A stretch of 43,121 nt of DNA from Nitrosotalea sp. (GTDB lineage: Archaea; Thermoproteota; Nitrososphaeria; Nitrososphaerales; Nitrosopumilaceae), in the NCBI GenBank assembly GCA_023252335.1, contig JAJPEA010000002.1, forward strand, positions 1-43,121, given 5' to 3'. The notes beneath the pieces were generated by a model, which was not told where the DNA came from, ran no database searches, and saw only the letters and a program-made list of their open reading frames with translations. Shown here in pieces: positions 271-19,043 of the stretch (position 1 is the stretch's first letter; each line of letters opens with the position of its first letter). Made by a program: the position numbers and the translations under genes.

Positions 271-1224
271 TTATTCTATTTGATCTAAATTAAGATCAAT
301 TCTCACACTTGCATCAGGTTCGTCCCAATCAAGTACATTGTCTTTTGGTATGAACCCAAGTGGGTCATACTTGTCAAAGCGTGTCTCCCCTTCAATTGAA
401 GTAAGCAGGACAACTTTGGAGTTTTCTCCTGCTGTGACTGACATGCTTACTCTAGTACTGTCATCTCCAAAAATTCCGCTTATTGTATTTACCATTGAAT
501 TCAAAACTCCTACTGGGACTTTGTTTCCGCCTACTACATACATTAGTGCACTTTTGATGTTATTTGGAGATGCGTCTTCGTATAGCATCTTGATAGAGTC
601 TCTAAGTGAGGTCTCTACGTCTGAAATATCCTTGCTAGTTGAAAGTATGCTTGTTTCAAGTGGTAATGATGAATTCTTTAGGGTGGATATTACGTGTAGC
701 AAGGCAGAATTTGTGATTTTATTGCATGCGTCTGGGGTAAGATCTGGGTTGCTCTCAAGTAATGCATCGTTGTCTATTATTACTGTACAATCTGAATTTG
801 TCTTTAGTCTCTTCAAAGAAACTCCTGAAAAGAATATCCTGTCTTTTTCAAACTTGAATGGCATGATTCCAAATGAGAGTGTACTCTTTCCTGCTTCTTT
901 GCTAATCTGAGATACTACAGGTGCAAGTGCAGCGCCTGATTTTCCTGCTAGGTTGGCAATGACCATTATTGTTGAATATCTACTAATTTTTTCTTCAATA
1001 GAACCTCTTGCACCAAATGATACGCCTCTTATGAGGTATGCAGACGGATTCAAAATAGGACTGGTATTAATCAAAATCTTTGAGGCGTCATGATTGAGAT
1101 CTCTTGCATCGTGGCTTATCAAAAGGCAATCATAGCCTAGTTTCTCCTTGATGTTGACAGCAAGCTTGCATCCTGCGCCACCTAGGCCTATGATTAAAAC
1201 TGGATCTTTCATCTGAAACTCCAT
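271..1224 (-). CDS. Divergent FtsZ-like (tubulin superfamily) protein
   Basis: N-terminal GLGGAGCKLAVNI resembles FtsZ GVGGGGGNAVN. LAGKSGAALAPVVSQISKEAGKSTLSFGIMPFKFE aligns with FtsZ GGGTGTGAAPVVAEIAK..TVGVVTRPFxFE, but the G-box is degenerate. Confidence 0.8.
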   Translation of the reverse strand: MEFQMKDPVLIIGLGGAGCKLAVNIKEKLGYDCLLISHDARDLNHDASKILINTSPILNPSAYLIRGVSFGARGSIEEKISRYSTIMVIANLAGKSGAALAPVVSQISKEAGKSTLSFGIMPFKFEKDRIFFSGVSLKRLKTNSDCTVIIDNDALLESNPDLTPDACNKITNSALLHVISTLKNSSLPLETSILSTSKDISDVETSLRDSIKMLYEDASPNNIKSALMYVVGGNKVPVGVLNSMVNTISGIFGDDSTRVSMSVTAGENSKVVLLTSIEGETRFDKYDPLGFIPKDNVLDWDEPDASVRIDLNLDQIE

Positions 1225-15841: not shown

Positions 15842-16387
15842 TTATTTTCTCTTGATTGATAAGGTCTTTTGAACTTCATTTACGCTGCTTAGGAATTTTT
15901 GTTTGGCTTCATATTCGTCTGTTACCTTGATTGTTATCTCTGATGCTGCAAACATTACATCTTTGACAAGTATTGGTGGGGATAGTCCTAAAAGCTCACT
16001 TAGTATTGTCAATATGTTGTTAAAAACTGCATTATTTTTATAGTGAAAGACAGTGTTACCATCTGCAATCTTTGGGTTTGGCTCTAGGGGGATGACAAGC
16101 TCATGTGAAGTAAATTCTGTTATAAATAATGCAATATCCTCTTTTACTTTTGTACTGAGATCTTCTTTTTGTGCAACTAGCTTTTCTTTTGCCTTTTCCA
16201 AATCTACTGAAGCATCATAATAATCCTGACCTATCATCTTTGCAAACGTGGATTCAGTTGGACTCTTCAGTGGGATCTCATGAATTCTAAAATTCACTGT
16301 TGCAAGCTCATCCTCTGTATCTTTTAGTTGTGATCTATTTTCTCTGATGCGTGATGCAACCTGCTCTAGGAAGGCAAAGTCAGACAT
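15842..16387 (-). CDS. Coiled-coil protein of unknown function, coupled to the tubulin-like gene
   Basis: Heptad-like N-terminal half; start lies 2 nt after the tubulin-like gene end. Confidence 0.7.
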   Translation of the reverse strand: MSDFAFLEQVASRIRENRSQLKDTEDELATVNFRIHEIPLKSPTESTFAKMIGQDYYDASVDLEKAKEKLVAQKEDLSTKVKEDIALFITEFTSHELVIPLEPNPKIADGNTVFHYKNNAVFNNILTILSELLGLSPPILVKDVMFAASEITIKVTDEYEAKQKFLSSVNEVQKTLSIKRK

Positions 16388-16389
16388 TT

Positions 16390-17778
16390 CTAGCTAAACT
16401 CATGGACTACATCCATAAGACTTGCTTTGAATTCTTCTGTAGTCAATCCCCACTTGCCATATTCATCTTTGAATGCGTCCCATGAAGCTTCTGCTTCACT
16501 TGCAATCTCCAAGATCTTTGCCCCTATTGCCTTTGTGTTTACAAGTATGGTGACATTTGCTTGTTCGGTTTCTAGTATTGGAATCTTGATGAAAATCATT
16601 CTTGATTCCTCTATGTGGAATCTATCCTTTATGATGTTCTTTAGAGCATCTCTTTCTTTTGCTTCAAAGTCTCCTTTTACTTTTACCAATACACAGCAGG
16701 AATCCTTGGGTCCTCCCTTGTCTCTTATGTCGTTTTCATCAATATCAAACAAAACTGCATCCTCTTTCTTGTTGATGTGCTCTACAATTCCCTCCATTGT
16801 ATTGTGTTTGGTACTTGCCATCAAATCAGAATTCCACTGCCTCTCTTCTGGAATCACTGGAATTACCCACGTAATTGCAAATCTTGGTCTCTTTGTTGCA
16901 AGCCACGTTCTATAGTTTGACATGTCCCATTCTGTCTCCCTTGCAAAAGATGCAGTAAACATGGAAATTGCATTTGCTGCAATCAAGTTCATTCCTCTGT
17001 AATCCTTCCAGCCTACTTCGTGTTCTTTTGGAAGATCATCTATGATTGAGGACATTTTGTCTAGTCTCTTTTCATGTTTCTGTGCAAGTTCTCTTAGTCT
17101 TTTATTTGAAAATAAGATTGAACAGTCACTATATTTTATCTGGTGTTCAAGATTCATGACGATATTGATTGCAGATGCTTCTAGAATTACTGGGTCCCAT
17201 CCAAATTCTGGTAATAGGCCAAATGATGCAATTGTAGCATGTTCCTTTGTGTCCTTTTTGATGTATTGCATAAAGGCACTTGCAAATGAAGCCCCTGTAC
17301 CACCACCCATTGCAAATGGAATTGTAAAACCTCTTACTGGTTCTGGAGAAAGACTTGCAAGTTGTTTTTGCATGTCATACTTTGTGCTTACTTCTTTGAT
17401 GAATCTAGTACGGCCCTCTGCCCAGTTTCTAGCTGCACCGCCTGCACCAGAAATTACATGCTTGTCTCTTAAAGCAAACAGGTCTGGGTATGACTGTAAA
17501 ATCAAATTGGCAGCTCGTGGGTCTAGATCAATTAAGAGTGCTCTTGGAATAAGCGGAATCTCACTTCCACCATATGCATTTGGAAATCGTAAAATTGTAC
17601 TTCCGTATCTTTTGAGTATGCGGGACTCGTCTTTTTCACCCTTTAATGTTGGCTTTAATGGATCTGCTCCGACATCAATCAATAGTCTTCGATATGATTC
17701 TGCACCAAGACCAATCCCACAGTGACCAAAACATGTCATTATAACTGGCGCTGGTGGTAATGGAGCAAATTTTGACAA
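16390..17778 (-). CDS. Tubulin-superfamily GTPase (tubulin/artubulin-like)
   Basis: TTG start. FGHCGIGLGAESYRRL resembles tubulin QCGNQIGxxFWE; IPRALLIDLDPRAANLI resembles VPRAVxVDLEPxxxDxV; SGAGGAARNWAEGR resembles SGAGNNWAKGH; FAMGGGTGASFAS matches the tubulin G-box. Confidence 0.87.
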   Translation of the reverse strand: MSKFAPLPPAPVIMTCFGHCGIGLGAESYRRLLIDVGADPLKPTLKGEKDESRILKRYGSTILRFPNAYGGSEIPLIPRALLIDLDPRAANLILQSYPDLFALRDKHVISGAGGAARNWAEGRTRFIKEVSTKYDMQKQLASLSPEPVRGFTIPFAMGGGTGASFASAFMQYIKKDTKEHATIASFGLLPEFGWDPVILEASAINIVMNLEHQIKYSDCSILFSNKRLRELAQKHEKRLDKMSSIIDDLPKEHEVGWKDYRGMNLIAANAISMFTASFARETEWDMSNYRTWLATKRPRFAITWVIPVIPEERQWNSDLMASTKHNTMEGIVEHINKKEDAVLFDIDENDIRDKGGPKDSCCVLVKVKGDFEAKERDALKNIIKDRFHIEESRMIFIKIPILETEQANVTILVNTKAIGAKILEIASEAEASWDAFKDEYGKWGLTTEEFKASLMDVVHEFS

Positions 17779-17935: not shown

Positions 17936-18232
17936 TTATCCTTCTTCTGTCAGAGCTTGTTTGAGCACACGAAATTCTTCTATTGATATTTGTCCTTCTG
18001 CAAGTCTAATTCGGAGAAGTTCGATGGATGTATCTTTTTTGGGTGGAGTTGTGACTTGGGGTTGCTCTACTGTATTATTGGATGACTCTAGCAAATCATG
18101 GATGTATCTATAATCTGACATGACAATTGGCTCATCATTTTTTACAGTCTCCATTATCTCTCGTAGTCTTTTTGGATTTCCTTTACCTGCTGCAAGCAAA
18201 CCCTTGATTGTTTTTAACATATCTTCTGACAT
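17936..18232 (-). CDS. Small SHOCT-like protein
   Basis: C-terminal ELLRIRLAEGQISIEEFRVLKQAL (SHOCT-like). N-terminal module also occurs in the 28067-28834 protein. Confidence 0.7.
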   Translation of the reverse strand: MSEDMLKTIKGLLAAGKGNPKRLREIMETVKNDEPIVMSDYRYIHDLLESSNNTVEQPQVTTPPKKDTSIELLRIRLAEGQISIEEFRVLKQALTEEG

Positions 18233-18233
18233 T

Positions 18234-19043
18234 TTATTTCACTATTGTCTTGAATCTGGGATCCCCTTTTATCTTATCGAATGACGAGTCTTTGATGGCC
18301 CAGCTTTTTATGGTTTTGCCATAATGCGATATTGCCTGTGCAAGAAGAACAAGGGCATCATCGTTTTGTCCTATCTGGGCTTTACTTCTTGCCTTTGCAT
18401 AAATTATTGTACCGTTTTTTGGAAACTCTTTTAGTATTTTATCAAAGATTATGATTGCCTCATCATGTCTGCCAAGCTCTGACAGTTCTGTTGCCTTGTA
18501 AAATATTGCCTCATTGTTTTCTGGTTCTTTTTCCAAAATTTTATCAAAGTATGACAATGCATCTTCATGTTTTTTTTGTTTGCCAAGCACCAATCCTTTA
18601 TAGTGCATTGCTTGCATGTTTTCTGGTTCTTTGTCAAGTACCTTGTTTAAACAATTTATGGCATCATCATACTTTTCAAGTCTGATTGATGTAATTCCTT
18701 TGTTATACAATGCTGGTAGATATTCTGGTTCATTTGATAATGCCCTGTCATAATATGTAACTGCTTTTTCAAATTGCTGCAACTCTGCAAAATGATTTCC
18801 TAGATTGTTTAATGCGTCAACATGATTGGAATCATATTCGATTATTTTCTCAAAGCATGATATGGCATCTTTGTTTTTCTTTAGCTTCAGAAGAGACATT
18901 CCTTTGTTATATAATGCGTCTACGTTTTTTGGGTCTTGTTTTAGTGCCTTGTCAAAAAATGATATGGCATCTTTGTGTTTTTCAATCTTGGCATAACTTA
19001 TTCCTTCTAAAACTGTTCTTTCCGTTTGATTTTTTTCACTCAT
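18234..19043 (-). CDS. TPR-repeat protein
   Basis: About seven 34-aa repeats, e.g. DALYNKGMSLLKLKKNKDAISCFEKIIEYDSNHV. Confidence 0.92.
   Translation of the reverse strand: MSEKNQTERTVLEGISYAKIEKHKDAISFFDKALKQDPKNVDALYNKGMSLLKLKKNKDAISCFEKIIEYDSNHVDALNNLGNHFAELQQFEKAVTYYDRALSNEPEYLPALYNKGITSIRLEKYDDAINCLNKVLDKEPENMQAMHYKGLVLGKQKKHEDALSYFDKILEKEPENNEAIFYKATELSELGRHDEAIIIFDKILKEFPKNGTIIYAKARSKAQIGQNDDALVLLAQAISHYGKTIKSWAIKDSSFDKIKGDPRFKTIVK

Follow-up and report, generated by a model that had tools for sequence, protein, structure and literature searches.

The window, meaning the whole 43,121-nucleotide stretch of DNA analysed here (Nitrosotalea sp., assembly GCA_023252335.1, contig JAJPEA010000002.1), carries a gene for a tubulin-like protein followed by a gene for a predicted coiled-coil partner, as well as a second, degenerate member of the tubulin superfamily:

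16390–17778, minus strand: artubulin, 462 aa, TTG start, assigned from Pfam Tubulin, PDB profile matches and an AlphaFold2 model
17704–17727, minus strand: T1 loop GHCGIGLG, residues 18–25, pairing with tubulin GQAGVQIG/GQCGNQIG
17413–17448, minus strand: T3 loop GAGGAARNWAEG, residues 111–122, mostly invariant, pairing with beta-tubulin GQSGAGNNWAKG
17293–17307, minus strand: T4 tubulin/FtsZ signature GGGTG, residues 158–162
16900–16941, minus strand: T7 loop and helix H8 RETEWDMSNYRTWL, residues 280–293, in which D285 is kept and N288 replaces the catalytic acid
15842–16387, minus strand: partner, 181 aa, a coiled-coil orphan family, 2 bp after artubulin
271–1224, minus strand: degenerate thaumarchaeal FtsZ-like protein, 317 aa, the second PF00091 match of the genome

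The reading frame at 16390–17778 lies exactly where the original prediction had placed a tubulin-superfamily GTPase, and Pfam Tubulin (PF00091) matches residues 14–232 of its product with an E-value of 5e-16 (60 bits, cut-off 33). The tubulin-like motifs quoted in that prediction are real, being near-invariant across 35 homologues of four families: PRALL.DLDPR (78–88), G111.GGAARNWAEG (111–122), GGTG (159–162) and RETEWDMSN.RTW (280–292) stand out in their alignment, and in the T1 loop G18, H19, G21, G23 and G25 are invariant. Among 72 distinct artubulins, the T4 signature reads GGGTG in 69 and AGGTG in one, and is absent from two fragments. The dN/dS ratio of the gene is 0.03–0.05; the gene is under strong purifying selection, and its motifs are not a product of chance.

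The protein belongs to a kind that has already been described. Public databases hold 35 loci encoding it at 84–98% identity, of which those with a genus name all belong to Candidatus Nitrosotalea, N. devanaterra and N. bavarica among them, and homologues from other genera are 74–80% identical to it. Artubulins of genus g10 (75–77% identity) have Snf7 directly upstream, and in locus L132, whose neighbours were assigned by eye from sequence, the genes run helicase, MFS, TBP, artubulin, Snf7, CMP/dCMP deaminase, DNA polymerase, TIM and AsnC. The same order is given for the Nitrosoarchaeum artubulin locus in the legend to Fig. 2B of Yutin and Koonin (PMC3349469), and this gene order is the basis on which we equate g10 with Nitrosoarchaeum. 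Because the window protein is 76% identical over its full length to the L132 homologue, sequence and gene order identify it as an orthologue of the published Nitrosoarchaeum and Nitrosotenuis artubulins. The artubulins of Nitrosoarchaeum limnia, N. koreensis and Nitrosotenuis uzonensis share its length and motifs (PMC3349469, PMC3835317). Of the two names first offered, artubulin is therefore the right one, and a distinct sister family is not needed. The original prediction gave artubulins as reported from Nitrosoarchaeum and from Caldiarchaeum; the former holds, while for the latter the main texts of the two papers name Nitrosoarchaeum and Nitrosotenuis instead, and in that of PMC3349469 Caldiarchaeum is cited for ubiquitin and crenactin.

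Of the order's 306 genomes, 76 have artubulin, a count that leaves out one weak chance match, and these fall into four families (57 genomes in f1, 15 in f4, 3 in f69 and 1 in f5, the last with two copies), which widens the range given in the main texts of the earlier reports; within the window's own family, 57 of 186 genomes carry it. In f4 and f69, identity stands at 53–60% for artubulin and at only 24–33% for the partner. Together with this wider range, the family-wide T7 substitution and the constant partner described below are what the present analysis adds.

We compared the protein with both branches of its superfamily. A PDB sequence search placed Asgard tubulins at the top (9e-17), followed by alpha-, beta- and gamma-tubulins, and the profile of 35 homologues returned Heimdall AtubB (5e-22), AtubA (2e-17) and gamma-tubulin (2e-14). 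When scored in one test at a fixed database size, the artubulin HMM gave 83 bits to AtubB, 67 to AtubA, 57 to gamma-, 47 to beta- and 45 to alpha-tubulin, against 19 for the best CetZ-like protein, at most 9 for CetZ, at most 5 for archaeal FtsZ and 0.9 for the FtsZ-like protein of the window. In a maximum-likelihood tree, artubulins and tubulins split from FtsZ and CetZ with support of 100/100, and the artubulins grouped in a single clade, whose branch of 2.15 lies outside the five tubulins included (93/91); the sampling leaves aside BtubA/B, OdinTubulin and others, two of its rows, both Asgard, are incomplete, and the tree carries a long-branch warning (Treekit). Among its reference rows, the checks against PDB alignments covered alpha-tubulin and CetZ, and gamma-tubulin over residues 2–216 only.

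That the gene might instead encode an FtsZ, CetZ or FtsZ-like protein, with convergent short motifs lending it a tubulin-like appearance, gains something from the length of the artubulin branch and from the fact that motif likeness alone can mislead. The gap in profile scores, the fully supported split in the tree and a full-length tubulin fold with two C-terminal helices refute such membership, and we regard this reading as scarcely credible. The profile, tree and AlphaFold checks thus returned a tubulin fold and a placement outside FtsZ/CetZ, and the expectation that the protein would be closer to tubulin than to FtsZ was borne out. Artubulin has affinity with the tubulins; we make no claim about ancestry, and its position relative to them is called unresolved in PMC13394414. 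The Asgard tubulins AtubA and AtubB (PDB 9f6t, 24rt; PMC13394414), which build microtubules, are its best profile matches among solved structures; they are not orthologous, since the artubulins form a clade of their own. Outside the Asgard archaea, artubulins are candidates for the nearest kin of tubulin. Viral tubulins were rejected as closer relatives of artubulin, giving far weaker matches and a TM-score of about 0.4. Long PF00091 frames in three genomes of other classes (G315, G347, G496) have an artubulin-like length but proved to be FtsZ-like proteins. Loci L129, L130 and L131, from other classes of the phylum, encode FtsZ-like proteins of 417–463 aa with an extended C-terminus, and in the tree those of L129 and L130 form a lineage distinct from artubulin, FtsZ and CetZ (100/99).

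An AlphaFold2 model of artubulin, built on the 35-row alignment, reached a mean pLDDT of 72.6 and a pTM of 0.77, and is only moderately confident. Foldseek matched its whole chain to alpha/beta-tubulin (E about 1e-18, TM 0.66–0.72, 16–21% identity), with BtubB and AtubA also among the matches, and the C-terminus consists of two long, tubulin-like helices. The model thus shares with eukaryotic alpha-, beta- and gamma-tubulin a predicted whole-chain fold, the GTP-pocket motifs and the C-terminal helices, and differs from them in some 17 extra residues between H6 and H7, an insertion peculiar to artubulins and built around an invariant SI.D.LP core, in a divergent M-loop region and in an Asn at the place of alpha-Glu254. 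Conservation is distributed unevenly over the model: the two faces that meet in longitudinal contact are its most conserved parts, with invariant shares of 80% in T2/H2, 60% in T3 and 65% in T7/H8, whereas the M-loop region is lowest, at 8–13% together with the C-terminal sheet. This pattern of conserved longitudinal faces and a poorly conserved M-loop region would favour protofilaments over microtubule-like sheets, for which the M-loop region lends no support to lateral contacts.

Aligned to human tubulins, the pocket keeps GHCGIGLG (T1), DLDP (T2), GAGGAARNW (T3) and GGGTG (T4), along with the T6 Asn and the Tyr and Asn of H7, so the predicted GTP-binding motifs T1–T6 are intact. In both tubulin and FtsZ, an acid at the T7 position drives GTP hydrolysis. 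Here, alpha-tubulin LNVDLTEF pairs with artubulin TEWDMSNY, which puts D285 at the position of alpha-Asp251 and FtsZ-Asp209, and N288 at the catalytic position of alpha-Glu254 and FtsZ-Asp212. This sharpens the earlier remark that the T7 catalytic acid was not obviously conserved. Of the 72 distinct artubulins, 71 have the T7 motif (the exception is a fragment); the catalytic position holds Asn in 70 of these and Ser in the remaining one, so that Asn there is a trait of the whole family. We found no description of it in the main texts of the artubulin papers (PMC3349469, PMC3835317). It makes for a clear biochemical prediction, namely that N288 would slow GTP hydrolysis, which the original prediction had suggested may differ from the usual.

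A PF00091 search of the window genome found no second tubulin with both GGGTG and T7. Its other match, the FtsZ-like protein, belongs to the same superfamily as artubulin but reads AGKSGAA where GGGTG would stand and lacks a recognisable T7 loop; it resembles in this the thaumarchaeal FtsZ Nmar_1262, which reads AGKAGSA and did not polymerise in yeast (PMC3684127). Of the tubulin-superfamily proteins found in this genome, artubulin alone has an intact GTP signature. The catalytic T7 acid is absent from every subunit type found here, whereas bona fide microtubule-forming tubulin has it in at least one.

The most constant feature of artubulin loci is the gene downstream, of which, as of the FtsZ-like protein, the original prediction made no mention. 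Within the family, the genomes with the partner are the 57 that have artubulin and one more with a relic, and order-wide the partner accompanies artubulin in 76 of 76 genomes, drawn from four families. Whenever the two genes share a contig, the partner follows artubulin directly, usually on the same strand and at 2–18 bp; the assemblies of G119 and G163, both fragmented, have them on separate contigs. In a survey of genes within 9 kb at 21 representative loci, which cover ten groups of genus or family rank, this pair alone recurred in all ten groups, the next best neighbour recurring in three. In one Nitrosotalea genome (G158), artubulin has been lost and the partner is a 40-aa relic with two stops (L140:7868–7987), while the flanking TPR gene is still there; this is a co-loss of the two genes. 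Two further genomes (G551, G021) contain broken partner copies and no artubulin match. Constant adjacency, co-occurrence in 76 of 76 genomes and co-loss in G158 are strong evidence from comparative sequence that artubulin and its partner are functionally linked, a linkage that we did not find in the main texts of the artubulin literature, although an earlier mention in the supplementary figures is possible. Upstream of artubulin, the window encodes a weakly SHOCT-like 98-aa protein (17936–18232, minus strand) and a TPR protein (18234–19043, minus strand), both of which recur in a single sister genus only.

AlphaFold2 modelled the partner at a pLDDT of 92.1 as a helical hairpin (residues 4–51 and 60–92) followed by a small alpha/beta domain. 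Neither Pfam (nothing over cut-off) nor a search of PDB folds (nothing below E 0.1) returned a relative, and homology to Snf7, prefoldin or tubulin cofactors was rejected on these grounds, the PDB sequence matches being generic coiled coils. The partner profile also detected full-length homologues in five genomes of family f2 (L168–L172; hhalign probability 99.9) and, in about 23 genomes of f3 (including L173–L180, L184 and L185), proteins reduced to the C-terminal domain, which have lost the hairpin and whose genes have conserved neighbours of Nep1-, Rpp21- and S19e-like type (names assigned by eye). No artubulin was found in f2 or f3, in searches that included positive controls. Artubulin therefore implies the partner, whereas the partner does not imply artubulin: these families have either lost artubulin or retain a partner domain with an older function, and a partner that persists without artubulin has, or had, another role. 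Since the f3 proteins lack the hairpin as well as artubulin, the hairpin is a candidate for the artubulin-facing part, an idea weakened by f2, which keeps the hairpin without artubulin.

On balance we favour a GTP-dependent artubulin filament, with slow or altered hydrolysis, that is organised by the partner. We infer that artubulin, as a GTP-binding protein of tubulin fold, would most likely stack head to tail into protofilaments, and that these would probably hydrolyse GTP slowly, or by way of another residue or the partner, because an Asn takes the place of the catalytic acid. The partner would most likely be dedicated to artubulin and attach to the filament so as to regulate, cross-link or anchor it, and alongside division by Cdv/ESCRT-III the pair would form an accessory module of the cytoskeleton. 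The catalytic Asn, the divergent M-loop region, the moderate confidence of the model and the loss of polymerisation in thaumarchaeal FtsZ (PMC3684127) are what one would expect if artubulin were a GTP-locked, non-polymerising switch or scaffold with the partner as its effector. A monomeric switch would not need the two longitudinal faces, including T7/H8, which are the parts most strongly conserved, and we consider such a switch quite unlikely.

The proposal of Yutin and Koonin, drawn from gene adjacency in Nitrosoarchaeum, has artubulin acting with ESCRT-III (Snf7/CdvB) in cell division. Snf7 does lie directly upstream in g10, the genus that matches their published locus (PMC3349469, Fig. 2B legend), and nearly all genomes of the family encode Cdv proteins. 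In Nitrosotalea, by contrast, no Snf7 lies next door: the sole Snf7 match of the window genome is on contig C131 and artubulin on C101. No Snf7 cluster recurs beside artubulin among the 21 representative loci of the ten groups, and the main text of the Nitrosotenuis paper likewise reports no Snf7 neighbour (PMC3835317). Adjacency to Snf7 is limited to one genus and is no requirement of artubulin, which leaves the 2012 model of ESCRT coupling without its main support elsewhere; most genomes of the family, moreover, divide without artubulin. We consider this coupling unlikely.

Returning to the partner-organised filament, we see an even chance that the two genes form an obligate two-component cytoskeletal system, ancestral in this order, whose members are ammonia-oxidising archaea and related lineages; in such a system a T7-Asn tubulin-like GTPase would be controlled or completed as a filament by a dedicated hairpin orphan of no known fold. 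The main texts of the artubulin literature do not report a function 14 years after the protein was described, and its constant neighbour points to a two-part filament system that is as yet unstudied. As the partner occurs in every artubulin genome, it is a specific protein to co-express with artubulin, and Nitrosotalea devanaterra, for which a complete chromosome sequence exists, encodes both. One genome (G474) carries two artubulin–partner pairs on separate contigs (L128, L148), whose artubulins are 77% and 79% identical to the window protein.
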